Source: a virus
Length of the DNA stretch: 39,122 nt
Direction: 5' to 3' (one strand)
IMG/VR virus record: IMGVR_UViG_3300045911_000217
Location: 1-39,122 of that record
Notes under the pieces: model-generated
What the model saw: the letters and a program-made list of their open reading frames with translations, nothing else
Told to the model about the DNA's origin: nothing
The model's database searches: none
Translations under genes and position numbers: made by a program
Part shown: in pieces, positions 1 through 39,122 of the stretch
How the letters are laid out: each line of letters begins with the position of its first letter
Numbering within the stretch: position 1 is the first letter of the stretch

Positions 1-332
1 CTATACTGTACAGGCTGAGTCTCAATCTTATGCACATTAGCTAGAATTTGTGCTTCCAAGACCTGAGCGTCGGCCATCTCCTTACAGTGTACAGGGATAG
101 TGTCTAGTCCAGCATCTTTCGCTGCTGAGAAGCGATGCAAGCCGTCTACGAGAGAGTAAAAGGTCTCACCCGTTTCTGGGTCTTTGCACTCGCGTACAAC
201 GATAGGGTTGAGGATTCCGTCCCTTTTAATTGAAGATACCAAACTAAGGTACTCTTCTGTTTGACGGTTAACGGGACGCAGAGCATTGGGGTTTTCCCGA
301 ATGTCACTAATTTTCAGTGTGAGCAATGACAT
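1..332 (-). CDS. ParB-like N-terminal domain protein, 3' part outside the window
   Basis: Reading leftward from ATG at 332, about 110 codons are open to the window edge, so the C-terminal part is missing. The visible protein begins MSLLTLKISDIRENPNALR, has a PIVVRE strand, and then DGLHRFSAAKDAG, which is the G-x-(H/R)-R-x-x-A signature of ParB/Sulfiredoxin-fold domains (CTP-binding in true ParB). A GGAGAAAG ribosome-binding site lies about 10 nt upstream of the ATG. It is divergent from the primase operon across the repeat-filled 333-1058 region. It may be a partition protein, or a DNA-modification or regulatory ParB-domain protein as is common in phages; the helix-turn-helix that would separate these lies outside the window. 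Confidence 0.85.
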   Translation of the reverse strand, partial: MSLLTLKISDIRENPNALRPVNRQTEEYLSLVSSIKRDGILNPIVVRECKDPETGETFYSLVDGLHRFSAAKDAGLDTIPVHCKEMADAQVLEAQILANVHKIETQPVQY

Positions 333-1051: not shown

Positions 1052-1088
1052 GCGGATAGTGTGGTTTCATATTATCAGGAATCTAAAA

Positions 1089-3728
1089 ATGCCAAGCAAG
1101 ACTGAGGCGATCAAATTATTTTTAGATACTTACGCCATTCGTGAGTTGGCGAAGCTCTACTCTTATGAAATGGAGGTACAGGTAACAGTATCTCAAAATA
1201 ACGGTGAGCGTATCTCGGGTGATTTCAAAGGCAGACACTGGCACGGGTTCACTGATGGTATCCAAACATGGAAGCCTATACGCGTACCATATCGCGCAAT
1301 GACCGATCCTGAGTATACAGATACGCCCATGACATGGGACATGACAGCGCATGCTGAGGGAATCGGCATGACGGGTTGGAACTGGGTGAGGAAACAAAGT
1401 ATATGGGTAGCTTTTGACTTTGACGCTATCACTGGCCATTCGGATAGGCACGCGAAAAAACTGTCCGACGAAGAGATGAAAGAGGTTTTGGAGAAACTAA
1501 AAGGGCTAGACTGTGTCACAATAAGAAAGTCAAAGAGTGGTAAAGGACTACATGTGTATGTGTTCCTTGAGCCAGTATCTACAAATAATCACACTGAGCA
1601 TGCAGCGGTCGCTCGCGCTATCCTTAGTTACTTATCTGCGTTAGCTAATTTCGATTTCAACCTTAAGGTAGATGTCATCGGCGGTAATATGTGGGTGTGG
1701 CACAAGCACGCATCCACTGACGGTTTTCAGTTAATTAAAGAGGGCACTAGGCTATGTAAAGTCCCTTCCAACTGGAAAGATTATCTTAGTGTAATGAGTG
1801 GGCGTAAGAAGAAAAGCTATCCGAGCTTCGTCATGCCGGAGGAAGAAAACACCTTTTCCCAATTGACTGGAAGGAGATTAAGAACTCCACTTGACGACCA
1901 ACACAAGAGACTACTATTGTGGTTGACAGATAATTATCCGTCCTGCAACTGGTGGGACGCTGAGCATCATATGATGGTCACCCACACATTCTTACTTAAA
2001 AAAGCTCATGAGCAGCTGAAGTTAAAAGGGTTGTTTGACACAGTTGCAAAAGGTACAGAAGAAGGACACGATATCAACTGCTTCATGTTCCCTCTGCCTG
2101 AGGGTGCTTGGAAAGTATATAGATATAATAGAGGGTTTCAAGAGAACCCATTGTGGCAACATAAGGAGTGGACTACTATATACTATAACCGGTTACCTGA
2201 GCTTGAGAATATAGCTGACTATTTCGGAGGTGTGGAGCGAAAGTCTGGAGGGTTCGCTTTCTCTGCACAAGCATCTAAAGATGTTATTTCTGCCTTGGGT
2301 GCCAAGGTTCCTGGCTCATGGACAGCACCAACTAATTTATCTATACACAAGAGTGGCAAACTCCTAGTCGAGGTTGAGCAGAAGGTAGAAGGGTGGGTTC
2401 AAGAAGGCAAGAAAAGCCGCTATATGGCCGCTCTTCCAACTCTCCCTCAATCCAATTGTGAGTTGGAGAGTTTGGATGATCAATTACGTCATCTTGTGAC
2501 AGAAACGGGTGAAGATTGTGGTTGGGTGATTAAAACACAATACAAATGGAATAGTGAGCCTTTTCAGCACGTCCGTATGTATGTAAGAGGGTTAGGATAT
2601 GGGCCGAAGGAAGAGTCTCACATACTTGGTAATAATGTCACAAATTGTTGGACACTTGTCAATGAGCCTTTCAAAGATGAATATCTTAAAGACAGGAAGT
2701 GGAACAAGTATTCCGCCCAGTTCAGTGTTATACCTTCCGCTAACAGGGAAGACTTATCCTACCCAACCTGGACAAAAATCTTAGATCACATTGGGAAGAA
2801 TCTAACTCCCGGTGTGCTTGAGAATGAATGGTGCCGGAAGCATCAAATAATTAATGGTATGGACTGGCTCAAGTGCTGGATTGCTAGCATGTTTCAGTAT
2901 CCAAGTGAGCCTTTACCTTATCTGTTCCTTTATGGCCCACAAAATACTGGCAAGAGCATCTTTCATGAGGCTTTATCTTTACTTTTAGATAGGGGTGTTG
3001 CTAGGGCTGACACTGCTTTGTTAAATAACTTCAATGGTGAGTTGGAGGGAGCGGTTTTAGCTGTTATCGAAGAGACAGATATGTCTAAAAATAAGGTGGC
3101 CTATAATCGCATCAAAGACTGGGTCACAAGCAGACATATTAACATCCATAAAAAAGGCAGACAGCCTTACTTAATAAAAAATACTCTACACTTTGTTCAT
3201 GCAAGCAACAGTTACTTAGCTTGTCCTATCTTCCCTGGTGATACCCGTATAACTATTATCCGTGTAGACTCACTGGAGCAAGCTATACCTAAGCGTGATA
3301 TGATTGACAAGCTAATGGCAGAAGCTAGTGACTTCCTTGCAGAGATTATTTCTCTTGAGCTTCCGCCGCCTTGTGACCGCTTGAACATACCTTGTATTTC
3401 TACTGAAGATAAAATCTTTGCTGAGGATGCACACAAAACGTCTTTGGAAGAATTTATCGAAAATAACTGCACTTACGCCCCAGGGTATATTGTTACACTT
3501 GCTGAGCTTCGGAGGGCTTTGTGGGACGTTATCGAACCAGATGAAACTAGAGTATGGACCTCTCGCCGTATATCTAAAGAACTGCCACTGCCATTCATAA
3601 AAGGTAGAGACCCTCAGACTAATGATGTTATTGTTGGTAACATAATTCTTGAATCCAATGCAACTTTTGAAACAAGGAAACCGTGCTTCGTCAAGAATGG
3701 CAAACTTTATAAAGGGGATGATTTGTGA
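1089..3728 (+). CDS. Primase-helicase: AEP-type primase fused to SF3/D5-type helicase
   Basis: An 879-aa replication protein that would prime and unwind phage DNA. The N-terminal third has archaeo-eukaryotic primase motifs: a metal-binding FDFD (about residues 109-112) and a SGKGLHVYVF block (about 150-160) matching the sxH nucleotide-binding motif. The C-terminal half is an SF3 AAA+ helicase with Walker A GPQNTGKS near residue 617, an acidic Walker B stretch (GAVLAVIEE), and a later HASNS that fits the polar sensor/motif C, followed by DTRITII. The start is placed at ATG 1089 because AGGA lies 8 nt upstream; an in-frame GTG at 1059 would add 10 residues with a poorer site. It is first in a three-gene operon and its TGA overlaps the next start. 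The architecture resembles phage and plasmid P4-type replication proteins. Confidence 0.88.
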   Translation: MPSKTEAIKLFLDTYAIRELAKLYSYEMEVQVTVSQNNGERISGDFKGRHWHGFTDGIQTWKPIRVPYRAMTDPEYTDTPMTWDMTAHAEGIGMTGWNWVRKQSIWVAFDFDAITGHSDRHAKKLSDEEMKEVLEKLKGLDCVTIRKSKSGKGLHVYVFLEPVSTNNHTEHAAVARAILSYLSALANFDFNLKVDVIGGNMWVWHKHASTDGFQLIKEGTRLCKVPSNWKDYLSVMSGRKKKSYPSFVMPEEENTFSQLTGRRLRTPLDDQHKRLLLWLTDNYPSCNWWDAEHHMMVTHTFLLKKAHEQLKLKGLFDTVAKGTEEGHDINCFMFPLPEGAWKVYRYNRGFQENPLWQHKEWTTIYYNRLPELENIADYFGGVERKSGGFAFSAQASKDVISALGAKVPGSWTAPTNLSIHKSGKLLVEVEQKVEGWVQEGKKSRYMAALPTLPQSNCELESLDDQLRHLVTETGEDCGWVIKTQYKWNSEPFQHVRMYVRGLGYGPKEESHILGNNVTNCWTLVNEPFKDEYLKDRKWNKYSAQFSVIPSANREDLSYPTWTKILDHIGKNLTPGVLENEWCRKHQIINGMDWLKCWIASMFQYPSEPLPYLFLYGPQNTGKSIFHEALSLLLDRGVARADTALLNNFNGELEGAVLAVIEETDMSKNKVAYNRIKDWVTSRHINIHKKGRQPYLIKNTLHFVHASNSYLACPIFPGDTRITIIRVDSLEQAIPKRDMIDKLMAEASDFLAEIISLELPPPCDRLNIPCISTEDKIFAEDAHKTSLEEFIENNCTYAPGYIVTLAELRRALWDVIEPDETRVWTSRRISKELPLPFIKGRDPQTNDVIVGNIILESNATFETRKPCFVKNGKLYKGDDL

Positions 3729-30139: not shown

Positions 30140-31066
30140 TCAAATATACCAATCAACAATCTGTTGAGCAGGAAATCCCGAGTACTGAGAAAACGCAAAA
30201 GTTTCACCAGCTCGACAAATCCAGTCAACCTCTTGCTTCCTAACCCAGAACCCACCTTGAGGTTGTCCTGAAGGACAAGTTCCATGAGCATTCAAGCCCC
30301 ACTGGTTATGTATCCAGAAGATTTCGCCTAGTTGCGGATGCTCCCACCATGCAAGAATAGACATTTGGTGAGACCAAGTTGTCGTGCGTTGATTCATTAG
30401 GACGCCATGCTCAACCTGACAACGCATATTACCACCCCAACGAGAAGCACACGTCACAGGATAGTAATTACAGATAGCATCTCGGACGGCGTTATGGTCA
30501 CGGCAGAGAGCAGTATCTTTGACAAGATATTTTTTAGCCTCTTCCGGAGCAAACTGACCGGTCGAATAATTCAATTCGGTTTCTCTGCCCCAGACGAGAC
30601 CGTCTGAATTCTGGAACTTGGGTAAGCCTTCTTTAGTTGCCCAAAGGACGCCGTCTTCACGAACAGCACGAGCAAACGTAGCACCAGTAGAGCCATCACC
30701 CCTTGTGTGACGACCGTACAAGTAAAATCGGGATCTACCATAAGGTAACAACCAGAAAGGAACCAAGGGGTTTTCTGCTTCCTTACGAATGATAGCGTCG
30801 GCCATTGCTAAGCTAGCAATTGCATTGCCACCACCAGCACCAACACAAGAACCCGTTACTTGACGGATTCCAGGGTAAGGGAACCCATTTGCAGCTACTG
30901 TTACCGGGTGCTTCCACAAGTCAGTGATACAGATTTTCTTTTCATTATTCACGTTTGTGTATACAGTATTTCCAGAAATAGATAATTCTGGCGGAATCAT
31001 ACTGGCGACGAGATTATTCTGTTCCTCAGTTCGATCCTCTTCACTGATATAGCCGAAGAGATTCAT
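30140..31066 (-). CDS. Papain-like (C1-type fold) cysteine peptidase
   Basis: 308 aa. TGSCVGAGGGNAIA gives the active-site Cys74 in the usual 'Q-x-x-x-S-C-x-x-x-x-x-x' context, TTTWSHQMSILAWWE gives the catalytic His233, and IFWIHNQWGLNAHG gives Asn254 before Trp-Gly, matching the papain N-S-W-G element. No signal peptide. The peptide begins MNLFGYISEEDRTEEQN, a lead-in I associate with planctomycete prophage peptidases. Because it sits two genes into the late operon before the terminase, it may be a capsid maturation protease, a lysis factor or an anti-host factor; context alone does not decide. Confidence 0.75.
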   Translation of the reverse strand: MNLFGYISEEDRTEEQNNLVASMIPPELSISGNTVYTNVNNEKKICITDLWKHPVTVAANGFPYPGIRQVTGSCVGAGGGNAIASLAMADAIIRKEAENPLVPFWLLPYGRSRFYLYGRHTRGDGSTGATFARAVREDGVLWATKEGLPKFQNSDGLVWGRETELNYSTGQFAPEEAKKYLVKDTALCRDHNAVRDAICNYYPVTCASRWGGNMRCQVEHGVLMNQRTTTWSHQMSILAWWEHPQLGEIFWIHNQWGLNAHGTCPSGQPQGGFWVRKQEVDWICRAGETFAFSQYSGFPAQQIVDWYI

Positions 31067-31677: not shown

Positions 31678-31717
31678 AGCGTTCTCCTATTTGTTGACAG
31701 GGTACTTTACACCTTTG

Positions 31718-31746
31718 ATTTTACCATATTTCTTATATTGAATCAA
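31718..31746 (-). promoter_or_regulatory. Promoter candidate for the 27-kb late operon
   Basis: On minus, TTGATT (31741-31746), 17 nt, then TAAAAT (31718-31723), about 40 nt upstream of the first late gene start. A TTGACA at 31757-31762 lies further up and may belong to an overlapping promoter with a longer spacer. No other strong promoter is visible within the operon. Confidence 0.5.
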
Positions 31747-31781
31747 TAGATATTCTTGTCAATAGATGAGTGTGCTCATGT

Positions 31782-32060
31782 GGAACAGCGTCTAAAATAG
31801 TGAAAATAAAATAAAATAGTTGTGATATAGGGTGTCTGAAAATAATATTTAAAAAAAAATAAAACAGCACCTAAAATAAAATAGTTGTGAAACAGCATCT
31901 AAAAAATAAAATAGTTGTGAAACAGCGTCTAAAAAATAGTTGTGAAACAGCATCTAAAAAATAGTTGTGAAACAGCATCTAAAACAGTGTCTGAAAAATA
32001 AAATAGTTGTGATATAGGGTCTAAAACAGTGTCTGAAAAATAAAATAGTTGTGATATAGG
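31782..32060. repeat. AT-rich tandem-repeat region upstream of the late promoter
   Basis: Repeated units of the form AAAATAGTTGTGAAACAGCAT with CTAAA tails, interleaved with GTGATATAGGG and ACAGTGTCTGAAA variants; units are about 24-31 bp and irregular. No gene is seen. It continues without a gene into 32061-32160, which holds only a GGCC-AAAAATTT-CGGCC short palindrome. Confidence 0.8.
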
Positions 32061-32160
32061 GTGGGGAGGTCGGCCAAAAATTTCGGCCCAAAGAGTTTTA
32101 ACCACAAATAAAAAACCCCTACCGTCATTCATAAGCGAGCGTGTGGGTGGGTGTCTATAT

Positions 32161-32550
32161 ATTTATTTGCGCGGCCGGAAGAAAAACTGATGGTGAGAGC
32201 CAGATCGGCACAACGAATCCTGGCGACGGCCAACAAGAAAAAATTATCAGTGTATGTGCTTGAGCAGAAGTGAGAGGATGTGTCGCCATGGAAAGTGTTA
32301 GGCGAGTGAGCCGTGAAGATATGGGCAGAGGAACGTATGATGGGACGGTTATATGACCAACTAGAAATATGTCAAAGTGCAAAGAAATGGAAACTGAATC
32401 TGCACTTGGAATCAAAGCGACTAGAAGTGAACAGAGGGGAAGGGATGAAGTATCTAAAGATATGAGAAGTAAGGACAGATGAAATAGATATGAGATAAAG
32501 GAACGAAGGAAGCGTGAAGTTTGAAGTAGCGAACAGATAAGGGAACGTAG
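32161..32550. other. Non-coding purine-rich stretch
   Basis: About 390 bp, rich in GAA/GAG/AAG on plus, with no credible gene: the long open frames here are low-complexity readings of the bias. I see no hairpin, array or promoter that stands out. Confidence 0.4.
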
Positions 32551-32792
32551 AAGTGTGGCAAGTGTGACCAGCAAAGCAAGTGTGGCAAGTGTAGCAAGTG
32601 TAGCAAGTGAGAGAACAGAGCAAGTGTGGCAAGTGTGCCAAGTGTGCCAAGTGTGCCAACTATGCCAACTATGCCAACTATACCAACTATGCCAAGTGTG
32701 CCAAGTGTGGCAAGTGTGGCAAGTGAGAAGGTAGGCCAAGTGAGAGGATGAACCGGATGAGAGGATGAACCGGATGAGAAGATGAACCAGAT
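32551..32792. repeat. 9-bp and 17-bp tandem arrays
   Basis: From 32551 to about 32724 the unit is GTGTGGCAA with GTGTGCCAA, GTGTAGCAA and CTATGCCAA variants (9 bp, about 18 units). From 32742 to 32792 three units of GAGAGGATGAACCGGAT (17 bp) follow. GGCAA/TTGCC occurs also in the terminator stem at 32820-32848, so the terminator and array share sequence. Confidence 0.85.
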
Positions 32793-32819
32793 GAGAGAAT
32801 AGACCAAGTGACAAAAAAA

Positions 32820-32848
32820 GGACACTTGCCAATTCATGGCAAGTGTCC
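32820..32848 (-). terminator. Rho-independent terminator of the ParB-like operon
   Basis: A perfect 12-bp stem GGACACTTGCCA / TGGCAAGTGTCC around ATTCA, followed on minus by TTTTTTTGT. It ends the leftward transcript of the genes at 34550-32881, 33 nt after the stop of the 28-aa membrane peptide. Confidence 0.88.
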
Positions 32849-32852
32849 GAAT

Positions 32853-32886
32853 GAAATCGAAATCGAAATCGAAATCGGAATCAGAA
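32853..32886. repeat. GAAATC hexamer array
   Basis: GAAATC repeated about 4 times then degenerate GGAATCAGAATC; it lies between the terminator and the stop of the 28-aa gene. Confidence 0.7.
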
Positions 32887-32967
32887 TCGGGAAGCGAAGA
32901 AAGCGAAAACGGTTAGGACGATCCAAACGCCAACGATCGCGAAGCCAACAGAAGTGAACATGTCCAT
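32881..32967 (-). CDS. 28-aa single-span membrane peptide
   Basis: ATG 32967 to TGA 32881, too short for ordinary gene calls. The peptide is MDMFTSVGFAIVGVWIVLTV followed by FAFFASRF: about 20 hydrophobic residues, then a basic end, as in small inner-membrane peptides. AAGGA lies 9 nt upstream. It is last in the ParB-like operon, after a strong hairpin and before the terminator. It might be a toxin-like, regulatory or holin-like peptide; the sequence does not decide. Confidence 0.65.
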   Translation of the reverse strand: MDMFTSVGFAIVGVWIVLTVFAFFASRF

Positions 32968-32989
32968 AGAATGGTTCCTTTCGAAAAGG

Positions 32990-33014
32990 TCGGCCTACGC
33001 TTGGCGTAGGCCGA
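32990..33014 (-). promoter_or_regulatory. Hairpin between the ParB-like gene and the 28-aa gene
   Basis: An 11-bp perfect stem TCGGCCTACGC / GCGTAGGCCGA with a 3-nt loop, 11 nt after the ParB-like stop. On minus it is followed by CCTTTTCG, a weak U-tract, so it may be a partial terminator or an mRNA stabiliser that lowers expression of the membrane peptide. Confidence 0.6.
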
Positions 33015-33024
33015 GGAAGCTAGT

Positions 33025-34215
33025 TCAGAAAGCGACTTTGTCCGCAGCAGCAGCAGCAGCAGGCGAACGAAGTTCTTCTGGCATTGGAAGTCCAAACGCC
33101 AACAGAGCATCGGTTACTGCTTGTGTGTCACCATTGCCAACGATGGCAGTAAGTAGAGTAGTCAGTTTGGGTTCTGTTGAGACTCGCGAGAAAGCGAGCA
33201 GAATATGCTTCACTTTCTCATTCCTGGACAGAACCAAGTCAATCGCAGGAAGTTTGGACCCAGAGTCGGGATCGCCCATGGTAGCGGCGATTACGTCCCG
33301 AACGATATCAGAAGCGAACAACGAAGCTCGCTTTGAAGCCTCTTTAACCGACCATCGAGGGTCGGTTTTTGTACTAGGGCTGACGCCAGTATCGACACTA
33401 TGGTATTGTTCCCATAGCTTTCGCATTTCGGCCTCGCCGCCTTTTTTGAGAGCGGCGTTCAGAGCCATGATTCGGGCGCGATCAACCCTTGCATACAAGG
33501 TAACTTTTCCCCCATCCTGCTGACGGCACGTCAGCAGGAATTGTTCTTGGATGTCCTTAGGTAAGGACAAAACTCCCAAGATCATCTGTCCCAAAGTTCC
33601 GTTCAGCCAGGATTTCAAAAACGAACGACGCTTTTCTGCATCAACGATTGCTTCGTACTCCCTAGCCTTTTTCAAGTCCCCAAACTGGGCTACCAAGTTA
33701 TAGGTAGCCTGGGCTATCTGATCAAAAGATAGCCCTTGGGCGTAGAGACGCCACACTACGCGAACGGTCTCTTCGCGATTTAGGGATTTGTGACTGTTAT
33801 GATCATTGACGAGAACCTCGCGTTCCAGGGACGAGAGGGGAGGGTAGACGACACAATCGAGACGCGACAATTCCTTCTTCGTGTCGACATCTACGTCCGC
33901 ACGAGCGAGAATCGCCTGAACCGCGCGAAGCCGCCGATTGCCTTGGAGCACAAGGTATCGGCCATGCTCTGTTTCCTCGACGATCAACGGATTGGTGATC
34001 CTCCCAATAGTGAGGATCGAATCAACTAGCGGGGTTAGGTCGTAGTTGTCTGCATTGCGGACGTTTGTATTGTCGTCAGAATACAAGGAAGACGTAGCAA
34101 GCGTCTTCCTGCTTGCCTTGGTGCTGATCTTAAGGTCTACAGAAACGTTGGTGTTGTTGTTCATGGTAGTGTTGTCGTTGTTCATGGTAGTGTTGTTCAT
34201 GTTAGTGTTGCTCAT
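33025..34215 (-). CDS. ParB-like nuclease-domain protein
   Basis: 396 aa. Residues ~60-100 hold the ParB core: DLTPLVDSILTIGRITNPLI and YLVLQGNRRLRAVQAILA, with GNRR at 92-95. A helical region follows (SLNREETVRVVWRLYAQGLS, FDQIAQAT) that could be a DNA-binding helix-turn-helix. The first ~25 residues are Asn/Thr/Met-rich, produced by a short DNA repeat (ATGAACAACACTACC-type units), and the C-terminus has an Ala run from a GCA repeat. ATG 34215 is supported by AGGAG that overlaps the end of the preceding gene, so the two are coupled. It sits beside the 13-, 68- and 16-bp arrays at 34698-35690. Confidence 0.8.
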   Translation of the reverse strand: MSNTNMNNTTMNNDNTTMNNNTNVSVDLKISTKASRKTLATSSLYSDDNTNVRNADNYDLTPLVDSILTIGRITNPLIVEETEHGRYLVLQGNRRLRAVQAILARADVDVDTKKELSRLDCVVYPPLSSLEREVLVNDHNSHKSLNREETVRVVWRLYAQGLSFDQIAQATYNLVAQFGDLKKAREYEAIVDAEKRRSFLKSWLNGTLGQMILGVLSLPKDIQEQFLLTCRQQDGGKVTLYARVDRARIMALNAALKKGGEAEMRKLWEQYHSVDTGVSPSTKTDPRWSVKEASKRASLFASDIVRDVIAATMGDPDSGSKLPAIDLVLSRNEKVKHILLAFSRVSTEPKLTTLLTAIVGNGDTQAVTDALLAFGLPMPEELRSPAAAAAADKVAF

Positions 34216-34223
34216 GATTGCTC

Positions 34224-34550
34224 CTAGGTCAGCTTCTTGTACTTTCTTGTGAGAGGGTTGAAAGAGACGCTATAGGCGATCGTCCAATCGGGAAAGTGCC
34301 ATACTCGCCGACTATGGATGTTGTACACAAAGTAGCAATCCGTAGATAGGACGTAGGAGGGTTCCCAGTTGCGGACGGTATAGACGAAGGATTCATCCGC
34401 AGTATCCTTTTTTTCCGTCTCGGCGATAGGGTAACCCCTATCATCGTAGACAATTCCGTCTACGATGAACACCATTCCTTCTTCTGGATCATCAAGCCAA
34501 TTCTTAAGTGGTCCGGGTAGATCGTAGCCTCTGTAGGAGAACAGGATCAC
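34224..34550 (-). CDS. Unknown 108-aa protein, first gene of the ParB-like operon
   Basis: It starts at GTG 34550 with GAAAGGAG 7 nt upstream. A longer reading from TTG 34625 is rejected because that TTG is the first base of the TTGACA -35 box. The protein (MILFSYRGYDLPGPLKNWLD...) has DDPEEGMVFIVDGIVYDDRG, YVLSTDCYFVYNIHS and RRVWHFPDWTIAYSV, suggesting a small beta-rich fold. I do not recognise the family. It precedes the ParB-like gene by 8 nt and may be its partner or an anti-host protein. Confidence 0.65.
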   Translation of the reverse strand: MILFSYRGYDLPGPLKNWLDDPEEGMVFIVDGIVYDDRGYPIAETEKKDTADESFVYTVRNWEPSYVLSTDCYFVYNIHSRRVWHFPDWTIAYSVSFNPLTRKYKKLT

Positions 34551-34596: not shown

Positions 34597-34625
34597 ATAG
34601 TAAGGTAGTTCAGTAGGCCTGTCAA
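34597..34625 (-). promoter_or_regulatory. Sigma70-like promoter of the ParB-like operon
   Basis: On minus TTGACA (34620-34625), 17 nt, then TACTAT (34597-34602), a near-consensus promoter about 46 nt upstream of the GTG start. The transcript passes left through the 108-aa gene, the ParB-like gene and the 28-aa peptide. Confidence 0.8.
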
Positions 34626-34697
34626 CCTAGGCGAGAGATTTTTTCGATTTGATCGTATCTTGTTTCAGGATACGCACTTAGGGAAATCGTGTGGTCG

Positions 34698-35037
34698 GAT
34701 CCTACCCACAGATCGTGCCCACAGATCGTGCCCACAGATCCTGCCCACAGATCGTGCCCACAGATCCTGCCCACAGATCGTGTGCCCACAGATCGTGCCC
34801 ACAGATCCTGCCCACAGATCGTGCCCACAGATCCTGTGGCTAGATCCTGCCCACAGATCCTGTGGCTAGATCGTGTGGCTAGATCGTGTGGCTAGATCGT
34901 GTGGCTAGATCCTGCCCACAGATCGTGTGCCCACAGATCCTGCCCACAGATCGTGCCCACAGATCGTGCCCACAGATCCTGTGGCTAGATCGTGTGGCTA
35001 GATCGTGTGGCTAGATCGTGTGGCTAGATCGTGTCTA
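34698..35037. repeat. 13-bp tandem array, about 26 units, iteron-like
   Basis: Unit GATC(G/C)TGCCCACA with a second variant GATC(G/C)TGTGGCTA; occasionally a unit is 15 bp (GATCGTGTGCCCACA). Every unit carries a GATC. The array begins about 70 bp upstream of the promoter of the ParB-like operon, which is where iterons or a centromere would lie. Confidence 0.95.
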
Positions 35038-35056
35038 ATTTACTTACAAATTCAAA

Positions 35057-35370
35057 ACCGTCTATATTAAAGAATATAATATGACAGACGGTTCATATGA
35101 TCCGTTCAACCCTTCCCATCAGTAACCGCTTGTATTAGGGAACGTAATATGACAGACGGTTCATATGATCCGTTGAACCCTTCCCATCAGTAGTGGTCTA
35201 TATTAGAAAATATAATATGACAGACGGTTCATATGATCCGTTCAACCCTTCCCATCAGTAACCGCTTGTATTAGGGAACGTAATATAACAGACGGTTCAT
35301 ATGATCGGTTCAACCCTTCCCATCAGTAGTGGTCTATATTAGGGGACGTAATATGACAGACGGTTGATAT
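35057..35370. repeat. 68-bp repeat array with ABAB higher-order structure
   Basis: Units start at 35083 (A), 35151 (B), 35219 (A, identical to the first), 35287 (B-like) and 35355 (partial), preceded by a partial B at 35057. Each contains ACGGTTCATATGATCCGT, an almost perfect 18-bp palindrome. A units carry CAGTAACCGCTTGTATTAGG, B units CAGTAGTGGTCTATATTAG. So the period of exact identity is 136 bp. Confidence 0.95.
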
Positions 35371-35690
35371 CATCCGTCTGACATATCATCCGTCGGACAT
35401 ATCATCCGTCTGACATATCATCCGTCGGACATATCATCCGTCTGACATATTATCTGACAGACATATGATCGGTCTGACATATTATCTGACAGACATATTA
35501 TCGGTCTGACATATTATCTGACAGACATATGATCCGTCGGACATATGATCGGTCTGACATATGATCCGTCGGACATATGATCGGTCTGATATATGATCGG
35601 TCTGACATATGATCCGTCGGACATATGATCCGTCGGACATATGATCCGTCGGACATATGATCCGTCGGACATATTATCCGTCGGACATAT
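35371..35690. repeat. 16-bp tandem array, about 20 units
   Basis: Unit GACATATCATCCGTCG with alternating TCG/TCT ends, then ATGATC, ATTATC and CTGACA variants. TCCGTCGGA and CATATG palindromes recur throughout. Its core CATATGATCCGTC is the same as the palindrome of the 68-bp units, so this array looks like a shortened derivative of them. Confidence 0.95.
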
Positions 35691-35736
35691 CAAGCTAGCT
35701 TGAATCCGGAAACCTGACAAAGAATTCGTAAATTAG

Positions 35737-35936
35737 GAAGCCGGAGTTGGGAAGCCGGAATCGGGAAGCCGGAATTGGGAAGCCGGAGTTGGGAAGCCGG
35801 AGTTGGGAAGCCGGAGTTGGGAAGCCGGAGTTGGGAAACACGACAAAGAATTCGCAAATTGGGAAACCTGACAAAGAATTCGTAAATTGGGAAGCCGGAA
35901 TTGGGAAGCCGGAATCGGGAAGCCGGAATTGGGAAA
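35737..35936. repeat. 14-bp GGGAAGCCGGAATT-type tandem array with AATTCG spacers
   Basis: Units GGGAAGCCGGAATT / GGGAAGCCGGAGTT interrupted two to three times by CCTGACAAAGAATTCGTAAA or similar. No gene is seen. The stretch to 36272 holds only CATATG-rich and GTACAT-rich AT sequence. Confidence 0.9.
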
Positions 35937-36272
35937 CGCGACAAAAAATTCGTAAATTGAAAATCCGGACAAGGAATTCGTAAAAAGAAAGTCACGCGCG
36001 CGATAAGAAATAAAGATGCCGGCCATGGTGGGTAATATAATATGGGAGTATAAGCGAAACTTATGACCTGTCATAAGGTAAACTTTTGTACATCTGTACA
36101 TATGTACACGCGTGCATATGAACATATCAACACATGAACACATCATCGCATAAGCAAGCGTTGATATGAAAGCCGTCAGTGAAAAAAATGCCGGGGAAAC
36201 TCGAAATTTGTCAACAAGTGAGACGGGAGTTTGGCTGGAACTTTGTCAATAGGTGAGACAAAAGTTTGTGGG

Positions 36273-36306
36273 TGAAAAATTATCTGGGCACCCAGATAAT
36301 TTTTCA
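36273..36306. repeat. Perfect 16-bp inverted repeat (hairpin)
   Basis: TGAAAAATTATCTGGG-CA-CCCAGATAATTTTTCA. It is followed by another AAAAATTATC direct copy. There is no gene nearby that it could terminate, so a structural or protein-binding role is possible. Confidence 0.8.
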
Positions 36307-36334
36307 GCCTAAAAATTATCTTGAGATTTTTTAG

Positions 36335-36676
36335 AGGGTCCAAAATTAGGGTCGGGTCAAAGCTGGGGGTCCGGAGTCCGGGGGTCCGGGGTCGGGTCCA
36401 AGGGGGTCCGGGGTCCGGGTCAGCGGTCAGGGTCGGGTCAGGGTCGGAGTCCAGGGTCGGAGTCCAGGGTCAGGGCAGGGTCAGGTCGAGGGTCAAGGGT
36501 CAGAGGTCAAAAAAAAAAATCAGGGTCAAAATAAAAATAAAGTGAAAAGTCACGTCAAAAGTTGGGTCAAAGGTCAGGGTCAGGGTCAGGGTCAGGGTCA
36601 GGGTCAGGGTCAGGGTCAGGCCAAGTGGGTCAGGTCAGGCCAAGTGGGTCAGGTCAGGCCAAGTGGGTCAGGGTCA
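36335..36676. repeat. G-rich GGGTC(A/C/G) arrays, G-quadruplex-capable
   Basis: From 36335 GGGTCC/GGGTCGGG/GGTCCGG units, from about 36569 to 36620 an almost pure (GGGTCA) array of about 8 units, then three 19-bp units GGCCAAGTGGGTCAGGTCA to about 36676. Plus is the G-rich strand. GGGTCA is a telomere-like unit with four or more close GGG runs. Confidence 0.88.
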
Positions 36677-36876
36677 ACGGTCAACGATAACTATATGGAT
36701 ATAGTAACTATAGTAACTCCAGAATGCGAACTCAAATGATTTTCAAACTCGTTTTTTGACAAAAATAAAATTAAAATTAACCCCAACACCAATCAATGTA
36801 TGCCCATGCGTATGCATATAAGTATGCGCTTATATATTAGCATATTGATAAATTAACAAGTCAACAAAAATTCATA

Positions 36877-37116
36877 CATTGATACATAAGCATATACTTA
36901 TATGTCTATGCATTGATACATAAGCATATACTTATATGTCTATGCATTGATACATCAGTATACACTTATATGTCTATGCATTGATACATCAGTATACACT
37001 TATATGTCTATGCATTGATACATCAGTATATACTTATATGTCTATGCATTGATACATCAGTATGTACTTGTGAGTCCATGTGTTGATACATCAGTATGCG
37101 CTTATAGGCTAGTAGC
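36877..37116. repeat. 34-bp tandem array, 7 units
   Basis: Units start at 36877, 36911, 36945, 36979, 37013, 37047 and 37081: CATTGATACATAAGCATATA followed by CTTATATGTCTATG, drifting to CATCAGTATACACT in later copies. Each contains the quasi-palindrome ATAAGCATATACTTAT. Confidence 0.95.
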
Positions 37117-37250
37117 TGTACAAAAGTGATCCTAGCTTCAATCGCGATTAAATCAATTCTGAGCCACTTTGACCGAAAGGCGGGGTAGGGGTCAAGTGAG
37201 GGGTGAAAGTGGCTAGGCGGGGCTTATAGGGCCAGGAAATGGCATCTGGC
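37117..37250. repeat. 133-bp module A (TGTACAAAAGTGATCC ... GGCATCTGG)
   Basis: First of four diverged copies (37117, 37584, 38236, 38645). Shared blocks: TGTACAAAAGTGATCCTAGC, CAAT(C)G..TAAATC.ATTCT, GTGGCTAGGCG..GC.TATA, GCCAGGAAA(T/C)GGCATCTGG. Copies A and B are closer to each other, as are C and D. No coding potential is evident. Confidence 0.9.
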
Positions 37251-37287
37251 TTGACAAAATTCGCACCCTCACCAGAGGAGAGGGAAA

Positions 37288-37354
37288 ACGTATAAGAAAC
37301 TGTTGATGAATATTTTATAGGGCTGTAAAAATTCATCAATGGTCACTTATACGT
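37288..37354. repeat. Foldback A, after module A
   Basis: ACGTATAAGAAACTGTTGAT opposite ATTCATCAATGGTCACTTATACGT, a 67-bp imperfect inverted repeat and the shortest of the right-side foldbacks. Confidence 0.75.
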
Positions 37355-37577
37355 CAACACGTCAGCACGTCAGCACGTCAGCACGTCAACACGTCAGCAC
37401 GTCAGCACGTCAAACACAGAGCCGGAACAGGGAGCCGGAACAGGGAGCCGGAACAGGGAGCCGGAACAGGGAGCCGGAACACAGAGCCGGAACACAGAGC
37501 CGGAACAGGGGGCCGGAACAGGGAGCCGGAACAGGGAGCCAGCACACGGAGCCAGCACACGGAGCCAGCACAGGGAG
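37351..37577. repeat. 8-bp and 13-bp arrays between modules A and B
   Basis: ACGTCAGC/ACGTCAAC units (8 bp) at 37351-37413, then GAGCCGGAACAGG units (13 bp, about 12) at 37419-37577. GAGCCGGA is the same core as in the Pro-Ala coding repeats at 29823-29905 and 31376-31410. Confidence 0.9.
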
Positions 37578-37583
37578 AATTAG

Positions 37584-37716
37584 TGTACAAAAGTGATCCT
37601 AGCTCCAATCGCGATTAAATCGATTCTGAGACACTTTGACCGAAAATAGGCCCAAGGGTCAATGAAGCGGTCAAAGTGGCTAGGCGGGGCTTATAGGGCC
37701 AGGAAATGGCATCTGG
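37584..37716. repeat. 133-bp module B
   Basis: Second copy of the module, most similar to A. It ends at GGCATCTGG and is followed by the foldback at 37763-37961. Confidence 0.9.
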
Positions 37717-37762
37717 GTCAAGATCGCAAATTTTCGCGCCCCTCACCGGAAGAGAAGGAGAA

Positions 37763-37961
37763 ACGTATAAGCAACTGTTGATAAGTACCCCTATAAAGGG
37801 AAATAAGAGTTACACGGGAACTAATAGTAGAATAGGTCAGTAGAATAGAAGATTAGGATGATCTATTCTACTATTCTACTGAACTACTCTACTACTCATG
37901 GAAAGTCGTGTATAAGTCTTATTCCCCTTATAGGGGGTTCCATCAATCATTGCTTATATTT
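37763..37961. repeat. Foldback B, 199 bp
   Basis: Arm ACGTATAAGCAACTGTTGAT, GTACCCCTATAAAGGGAAAT, AAGAGTTACAC..., facing the near-complement with CTTATTCCCCTTATAGGGGG and ATCAATCATTGCTTATATT. The centre is CTATTCTACTATTCTACT with TAGTAGAATAG, also found in the left foldbacks. Confidence 0.85.
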
Positions 37962-37979
37962 TAGCCCTGTTAAAGTTAC

Positions 37980-38222
37980 CCACTCATCCACTCATCCACT
38001 CACCCACCCACCCATTCATCCCTTCATCCCTTCATCCGTTCATCCGTTCATCCCTTCATCCCTTCATCCCTTCATCCGTTCATCCGTTCATAAGTCATGA
38101 ATGAGGTCATGAAAATAAGTCATAGGGTCAGGTCACGGGTCAGGTCACGGGTCACGGGTCACGGGTCACGGGTCAGGGTCAGGGTCGGGGTCACGGGTCG
38201 GGGACAGGGGACAGGGACAGGA
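37980..38222. repeat. 8-bp CATCC arrays and GGTCACG arrays
   Basis: (C)CACTCATC, TTCATCCC and TTCATCCG 8-bp units at 37980-38091, then GGTCAC/GGGTCA/GGGGAC G-rich units at about 38129-38222. No gene. Confidence 0.85.
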
Positions 38223-38235
38223 GTGGGAAAATTAG

Positions 38236-38368
38236 TGTACAAAAGTGATCCTAGCTCCAATCGTCATAAAATCGATTCTAAGCCCTTCGGAGCAAAAATA
38301 GGCCCAAGGGTCAATGAGACGGTCAAAGTGGCTAGGTGAGGCGTATAACGCCAGGAAACGGCATCTGG
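38236..38368. repeat. 133-bp module C
   Basis: Third copy, closest to D (TCGTCATAAAATCGATTCTA, GAGGCGTATAACGCCAGGAA). GGCGTATAACGCC forms a small perfect hairpin here and in D. It is followed by TGATGGGGAGCGG. Confidence 0.9.
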
Positions 38369-38414
38369 TGATGGGGAGCGGAAAAAATTGACCCAAACCC
38401 TGACCAAAAATAAA

Positions 38415-38592
38415 ACATATAAGCAATGGTTGATGGAACCCCCTATAAAGGGAAATAAGAGTTACACAGGAACTGATAGTAGAATAGATCAGTAGGTCAG
38501 AAGGATAGAAGGTTAGAATCATCTATTCTACTATTCTACCGTTCTAATCTACTACTCATGGGAAGTCGTGTGTATACTATATTTTGCTTATA
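38415..38592. repeat. Foldback C, about 178 bp
   Basis: ACATATAAGCAATGGTTGAT then GGAACCCCCTATAAAGGGAA, facing a degraded partner that ends TTTTGCTTATAG. Its first arm matches the second arm of foldback B read in reverse. Confidence 0.8.
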
Positions 38593-38644
38593 GCACCGTT
38601 TCATTATTAGATGCTTATCTGTTGGTGATGAGCATAGGCAGTAG

Positions 38645-38777
38645 TGTACAAAATGGATCCTAGCTCCAATCGTCATAAAATCGATTCTAAGCCCTTCAGG
38701 GTGAAAATAGGCCCAAGGGTCGATTAAGCGGTCAAAGTGGCTAGGCGAGGCGTATAACGCCAGGAAACGGCATCTGG
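38645..38777. repeat. 133-bp module D
   Basis: Fourth copy, with TGTACAAAATGGATCCTAGC at the start. In place of a foldback it runs into the 13-bp array at 38817. Confidence 0.9.
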
Positions 38778-38816
38778 TGATGGGGAACCGAAAAGTGGCC
38801 CAAAATGTCGTCCCGG

Positions 38817-38965
38817 GTGATCGGCTGCGGTGATCGGCTGCGGTGATCGGCTGCGGTGACCGGCTGCGGTGACCGGCTGCGGTGACCGGCTGCGGTGATG
38901 GGGAGCAGTGACCAGCTGCGGTGATCGGCTGCGGTGATCGGCTGCGGTGACCGGCTGCGGTGACC
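38817..38965. repeat. 13-bp GGTGATCGGCTGC array, about 11 units
   Basis: Units alternate GGTGATCGGCTGC and GGTGACCGGCTGC. One unit reads GGTGATGGGGAGCAGTGACC, close to the GGTGATGGGGAGCGG after module C, so the array probably expanded from the module's 3' flank. Confidence 0.92.
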
Positions 38966-39122
38966 ACTCCTGAGGGGTCGGTTTCGGTCACTCCTGACCA
39001 CTCCTGAGGGGTCGGTTTCGGTCACTCCTGACCACTCCTGAGGGTCAGTTTGGGGGTCAAAATGACCACTCCTGAGGGTCGGTTTGGGGGTCAAAATGAC
39101 CACTCCTGACCACTCCTGAGGG
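38966..39122. repeat. 34-bp array running off the window edge
   Basis: ACTCCTGAGGGGTCGGTTTC-type units start at 38966, 39000, 39034, 39068 and 39102, all 34 bp apart. The last is cut by the window edge. Confidence 0.9.

Follow-up and report, generated by a model that had tools for sequence, protein, structure and literature searches.

In the F plasmid, SopB and its partner SopA work with sopC, a row of tandem 43-bp units, and plasmid RK2 has, besides KorB, a ParA named IncC. ParB-family clamps outside ParABS systems are common and mostly without known sites or roles. The 16-bp operators of KorB lie upstream of promoters at a distance of either 4-10 bp or 45 to >1,000 bp (PMC11790492), and mycobacteriophage RedRock, which is temperate and extrachromosomal, encodes a ParA as well as a ParB (PMC7157519). 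Here, we describe three tandem arrays (A, B and C) in an environmental phage, best explained as belonging to a control zone built of repeats, of which they form the end nearest the promoter; the zone lies where the late operon meets the operon of a ParB-family gene, ParB1.

The window, by which we mean the whole stretch of DNA analysed, takes up an entire IMG/VR record (39122 bases) that is classed as linear and is probably a virus fragment. Its source is an environmental tailed phage, whose minus strand carries a late operon for a tape measure, a portal, a major head protein and a gpA-type terminase and whose plus strand encodes a primase-helicase and a dNMP kinase. Two ParB-family genes are present, ParB1 (33025-34215) and ParB2, which is truncated by the left record end. 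Rfam and tRNA scans gave no matches. A protein encoded at 30140-31066 resembles a papain-like peptidase by eye and has a homolog near the late-operon start of relative G062. Terminase and primase searches brought together a large family of related environmental phages, the longest records reaching about 110 kb. The features of the window are as follows.

1-332, minus strand: ParB2, left part missing at the record end (PF02195, E = 3.9e-17)
503-847, no strand: long near-perfect hairpin of ~168 bp in two identical tandem copies, between parB2 and primase
834-1013, no strand: 33-bp array, 5.5 copies, directly upstream of the primase gene (TRF)
1059-3728, plus strand: primase-helicase, used to find the phage family
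27572-29735, minus strand: gpA-type large subunit and putative small subunit of the terminase, which served to find the phage family and to mark the late-operon boundary
31862-32889, no strand: arrays flanking the ParB1 operon on the side opposite to A to C, of 25/42-, 9/27-, 17- and 6/18-bp units (TRF)
33025-34215, minus strand: ParB1, 396 aa, ParB family, N-terminal ParB fold and putative central DNA-binding region
34224-34550, minus strand: first gene of the ParB1 operon, about 108 aa, GTG start after AGGAG (start from reading the sequence)
34597-34625, minus strand: sigma-70-like promoter TTGACA-N17-TACTAT, 10 of 12 consensus positions
34705-35034, no strand: array A, 25 AGATC units spaced 13 bp apart except for two steps of 15 bp (TRF, unit list)
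35056-35377, no strand: array B, 68-bp unit in 4.7 copies, 136-bp superperiod (TRF)
35367-35690, no strand: array C, 20 units of 16 bp, ATATGATCCGTCGGAC (TRF, unit list)
35731-39109, no strand: arrays beyond C, of 14/28-, 6/7-, 19-, 34-, 8-, 13-, 8-, 7/13-, 13- and 34-bp units (TRF)
37114-38794, plus strand: 153-bp module in four dispersed copies (37114, 37581, 38233, 38642)
37761-37962, no strand: long imperfect hairpin that matches the parB2-primase hairpin at 77% identity over 69 nt
38413-38549, no strand: second copy of the preceding hairpin

The ParB1 operon comprises two genes, for the 108-aa protein and for ParB1, and the sigma-70-like promoter, a strong one, would drive both. An open reading frame listed from 34625 would begin inside the promoter, and a start at about 34550 is likelier. 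The 108-aa protein has no family match, and this partner gene of ParB1 showed no homology among the relatives. Array A lies 79 bp from the -35 box, and arrays A to C together span 79-1065 bp upstream of it; the good promoter near the arrays that an earlier, preliminary description had proposed is thus present.

That the neighbouring protein is ParB-like, as the same description held, is borne out by comparisons that point to a ParB/Noc/KorB fold. ParB1 matches Pfam PF02195 (ParB_N) just under the cut-off (E = 2e-5; 24.9 bits against 26.3), is assigned to PHROG 4715 and matches Noc/ParB in a PDB profile search (1.2e-6). Its AF2 model, of moderate confidence (pLDDT 70.6), resembles ParB, Noc, KorB and pNOB8-ParB structures, the match to ParB, Noc and pNOB8-ParB covering residues 27-282. 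Among the matching structures are 5k5d and 7nfu (both with rmsd 4.8; Z 10.8 and 9.1 over 194 and 176 aligned residues, respectively) and the ParB-parS complex 6t1f (Z 8.3, 167 aligned, rmsd 6.6). The ParB N-terminal domain fold is matched at Z 10-11, and the structure match extends to residues 144-282 (the putative DNA-binding region); the protein gave no Pfam HTH match. A GNRR motif is invariant in four close ParB1 homologs, which is only a hint that ParB1 may bind and hydrolyse CTP. Profile comparison and the predicted structure place ParB1 with ParB, Noc, KorB and pNOB8 ParB.

All three arrays first reported from the sequence (13-, 68- and 16-bp units) were recovered by TRF, with scores of 281-559, far above chance. 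The units of array A come in two forms, GCCCACAGATCsT and GTGGCTAGATCsT. Each unit of array B holds an imperfect dyad, ACGGTTCATATGATCCGT, and in the last copy TCATATGA has become TGATATCA with the palindrome retained. Array C has 8 distinct sequences among its 20 units, with nearly all variation in 4 of 16 columns; CATATG is broken in half of the units, and a symmetric double change (TCCGTCGGA to TCTGACAGA) retains the dyad. Since unit duplication confounds covariation, the symmetric, dyad-keeping changes in B and C argue weakly. The proposed common core of B and C holds for the 12-mer CATATGATCCGT (three copies in B, six in C) but not for the 13-mer originally quoted, CATATGATCCGTC, which in its exact form is confined to six units of array C. 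The first C unit is a copy of the core of the last B unit, so array C probably grew out of B by tandem amplification. An exact search of viral contigs with the array C core gave no match. Two further candidates were rejected: the 8-mer GACGGATC, common to array C and a 15-bp array of G018, was dropped because ~0.3 such matches are expected (an estimate) from the number of arrays compared, and array C as a row of sigma-70 promoters (45 promoter-like sites versus 12 expected) was judged a by-product of the CTGACA and TATGAT of its unit.

The arrays had been taken for a three-part locus; they are present, but are just 3 of about 17 arrays, mostly of unrelated units, in a larger noncoding zone. 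This zone flanks the ParB1 operon (31678-33024 and 34626-39122, 5.8 kb), with its arrays at 31.8-32.9 kb and 34.7-39.1 kb, and tandem repeat makes up 2786 of its 5845 bases (48%) versus 180 of 33278 (0.5%) elsewhere in the record. One DNA-binding protein cannot account for this whole zone with its arrays, 153-bp modules and hairpins. Copies of the 153-bp module are separated by different minisatellites, each copy lying near a different one. The module carries TGATCCTAGCTCCA...ATCGATT, also found in an inverted repeat upstream of the G062 ParB1 (L143 2530-2755) and, outside the window and G062, in no other viral contig searched.

Among relatives, 10 of 17 have arrays in the DNA upstream of terS, and most of these 10 have almost none in other places. 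They include a 13-bp array at both contig ends of G003, adjoining terS, arrays of 15, 17 and 25 bp upstream of terS in L006, L009 and L017, respectively, and, in G062, ACGTGTCACTTG-bearing arrays that separate the late operon from ParB1, with inverted copies beyond ParB1. L131, from a Pontiellaceae bin, has at 1-2900 an 8-bp array, then a gene that is ParB-like by eye, short arrays and terS; this contig is a possible host hint. A long near-perfect hairpin lies upstream of terS at L139 12107-12230 (G018). Arrays missing from close relatives that keep the operon would have counted against the first reading; G020 keeps ParB1 without arrays, and G019 and G018 have few, short repeats near it, so this objection applies in part, all three being distant relatives, and others keep repeats.

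In a sequence-tolerant noncoding zone, slippage or recombination as the phage replicates might keep making such arrays as minisatellites, with no specific protein for A to C; this is the main rival reading, which we regard as a distinct possibility though not the expected outcome. It would account for about 17 mostly unrelated arrays in one zone, for the apparent outgrowth of array C from the last B unit, for unit sequences that are not conserved between relatives and for the several relatives that keep ParB1 with few or no arrays. However, the arrays recur at the same genomic boundary, dyads are preserved by symmetric changes, and palindromic elements are common to two distant loci of the same genome. 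Neutral array growth best explains the excess of unrelated arrays and may explain A to C too.

The second of these loci is the region between parB2 and primase, where a ParB2 relative is divergent from primase at 70 of 80 primase loci. A single copy of the window's hairpin in this region folds at -97 kcal/mol as RNA. A private element is common to the parB2-primase region and the late-operon/ParB1 zone in 7 of 7 same-genome pairs versus 0 of 42 cross-genome pairs, and in near-whole-genome searches the matches concentrate in the late-operon/ParB1 zone. The G018 element also lies directly upstream of a third ParB gene (62.7 kb), and two further short matches lie elsewhere (G003, 11.5 kb; G055, 52.4 kb). 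The window's own shared element is not one of arrays A to C but the long hairpin (503-847; 37.8/38.5 kb), whose copies in the zone lie about 3 kb from them.

A palindrome class, TAAGTSSTT-N7-AASSACTTA, was derived from the palindrome of G039, which has eight exact copies of the 25-bp TAAGTCCTT-N7-AAGGACTTA between ParB1 and terS. The class has 27 matches in 41.4 kb of parB2-primase intergenic DNA versus 0 in 1.194 Mb of flanks, the matches not all being independent because some loci are near-duplicates. A profile of it has a match in 24 of 60 distinct parB2-primase intergenic regions, an optimistic count since the profile was trained on the same regions. G055 carries the 25-bp palindrome upstream of ParB1 (one exact copy and two with 2 mismatches) and close variants of it upstream of primase. 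The window held no convincing match, the best scores falling in coding DNA and within background maxima. A tie between the palindrome and ParB2 via the HTH was rejected, with no correlation found (L057 and L060 are alike in their HTH, yet the site is present in just one of the two); as site presence is independent of the ParB2 HTH sequence, no ParB is linked to this palindrome. Some shared elements (G020, G055, adjoining terS) resemble ordinary co-used promoters, and because some elements directly upstream of terS and primase read as common promoters, co-regulation is the minimum conclusion. The shared private elements and the palindrome class are additions beyond the first reading.

A replication origin in or beside the zone, with iterons bound by a phage initiator, is improbable for the arrays. 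The repeat arrays, hairpins and AT-rich stretches would suit one, as would the recurrence of a zone element beside the primase gene, but no initiator gene adjoins the arrays, their neighbours being ParB1 and the 108-aa protein, the 13-, 16- and 68-bp periods are not whole helical turns, and primase and its intergenic site lie at the opposite record end. The origin role suggested at the outset thus keeps a small chance for the arrays, but by gene content the origin-like locus is the parB2-primase region at the left window end.

About half of the relatives (L006, L007, L015, L017, L018, L139, L141, L147 and L149) carry an oriented G-rich motif, GGG(T/A)GGGTCAAA or GGGGTCAAA, upstream of terS, with 23 overlapping matches in 17.4 kb upstream versus 2 in 143 kb downstream and none on the opposite strand. 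It often occurs in two copies about 125-185 bp apart and is a possible packaging site or late promoter. This motif, and arrays that in relatives often lie directly upstream of terS, would fit a pac or cos site at which the terminase small subunit binds repeats near the late operon; for A to C such a site is decidedly improbable, as the G-rich motif occurs in the window zone only at 39.05-39.09 kb and opposite to terS, and A to C are 5 kb away from terS, on the far side of the ParB1 operon.

Because the window is the whole record and a fragment, the absence of ParA from it alone says little, and the relatives were required. Seven other records encode a ParB1 homolog (aligned at 18-33% identity), near the late-operon end in the records examined; a ParB1-only query found no relatives, and a four-member alignment query found just three that were already known. 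ParB_N matches occur in 33 of 33 larger records, with two or more in 30 of them, and most relatives have a further gene, ParB3, with HTH_ParB, at a distance of roughly 5 kb from ParB2 (G003 L040 17303-18157; G018 62.9 kb; others). ParA-type ATPases were detected in none of 33 relatives with PF13614 (AAA_31), which was negative in the window itself too, and in none of 31 records including the window with PF01656 (CbiA), records that may be incomplete. Tyrosine integrase (PF00589) was found in none of 31 records; the ParA-type and integrase models were positive in 14 of 14 control genomes. The ParA-binding motif (L/F/I)G(K/R)G(L/F/I) is absent from 8 ParB1 and 60 ParB2 proteins and from the window's ParB2 fragment, which is not decisive because P1 ParB also lacks the consensus. 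Terminase relatives occur in just two contigs of 84,980 species genomes (bin origins conflict, one being an archaeon), so these phages do not commonly turn up as residents of a host genome.

A phage-plasmid partition locus of the ParABS type, which a ParB-family gene with upstream tandem sites and the RedRock parS loci of eight direct 8-bp repeats (PMC7157519) might suggest, is barely plausible where relatives have ParB and, over 31-33 records, neither a ParA-type ATPase, a tyrosine integrase nor a consensus ParA-binding motif, and where a terminase relative is so rarely met in species genomes. Phage-plasmid segregation, one of the roles proposed in the preliminary description, is not supported; its ParB-fold neighbour stands, as do repeats or palindromes near ParB1 in several relatives. 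That the relatives keep ParB without ParA points to a gene-control or replication-control zone rather than to plasmid-style segregation.

Within such a control zone, the reading we favour, tentatively and a little short of calling it probable, is an operator or loading-site zone for ParA-less, KorB/Noc-like ParB clamps. Proteins that bind DNA as dimers, in all likelihood those of the phage's ParB family, would load on dyad sites in the zone, with arrays B and C as the best ParB1 candidate sites by position, 16-bp spacing and dyads. Loaded clamps would close and slide, could repress or time the ParB1 promoter and might keep the replication locus in step with the late one, much as KorB acts on RK2 from operators that can lie over 1 kb upstream. 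We infer binding of ParB1 to the arrays; tandem amplification, acting locally on the sequence-tolerant zone, probably gave rise to the other arrays. The clamp reading draws on the arrays upstream of the ParB1 promoter, the structural match of the ParB1 model, ParB without ParA in relatives, the palindrome class, the shared elements, the dyad-keeping changes and the KorB precedent. Against it, the element shared with the parB2-primase region is something other than arrays A to C, about 14 other arrays of unrelated units need a separate explanation, ParB1 has no Pfam HTH match and a model of moderate confidence, and the palindrome is independent of the ParB2 HTH; moreover, G020 has ParB1 without arrays, some shared elements are promoter-like, and the covariation in C is confounded. 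A wider version, which we find rather doubtful, would have this phage family, a widespread one, run a ParA-less network of two or three ParB clamps, with lineage-specific palindrome or hairpin sites at both loci timing replication and late expression and with A to C as an extreme expansion of the ParB1 branch. At minimum, this is a control zone at the late-operon boundary, its element also used at the replication locus.

The phage family offers paired ParB genes, no detected ParA and candidate sites that can be read from the sequence. Should the clamps bind the shared sites, sliding ParB clamps would serve phages to switch genes or replication, not for segregation; otherwise, the zone would be a good natural example of minisatellites growing fast at a single fixed position in a phage genome. 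Array B is like sopC of the F plasmid in layout, having tandem units with one dyad each. The OB sites of RK2 are not known to occur in tens of tandem copies. The available part of a survey of orphan ParB-CTPase-fold proteins of phages and mobile elements describes, as found here, proteins with no ParA and no ParA-binding motif, and that part gives no account of this phage family, of paired ParB genes or of shared private sites (PMC12704722). The parABS locus of RedRock likewise joins a phage ParB with direct-repeat arrays beside genes (PMC7157519), but its ParA and its temperate, extrachromosomal state set it apart from phages in which no ParA or tyrosine integrase was found. The KorB-OB system of RK2 includes a KorA partner, none being seen here, and, on the favoured reading, would share with our locus a ParB-family clamp doubling as a promoter repressor, operators upstream of promoters, 16-bp sites and several loci under joint control (PMC11790492).
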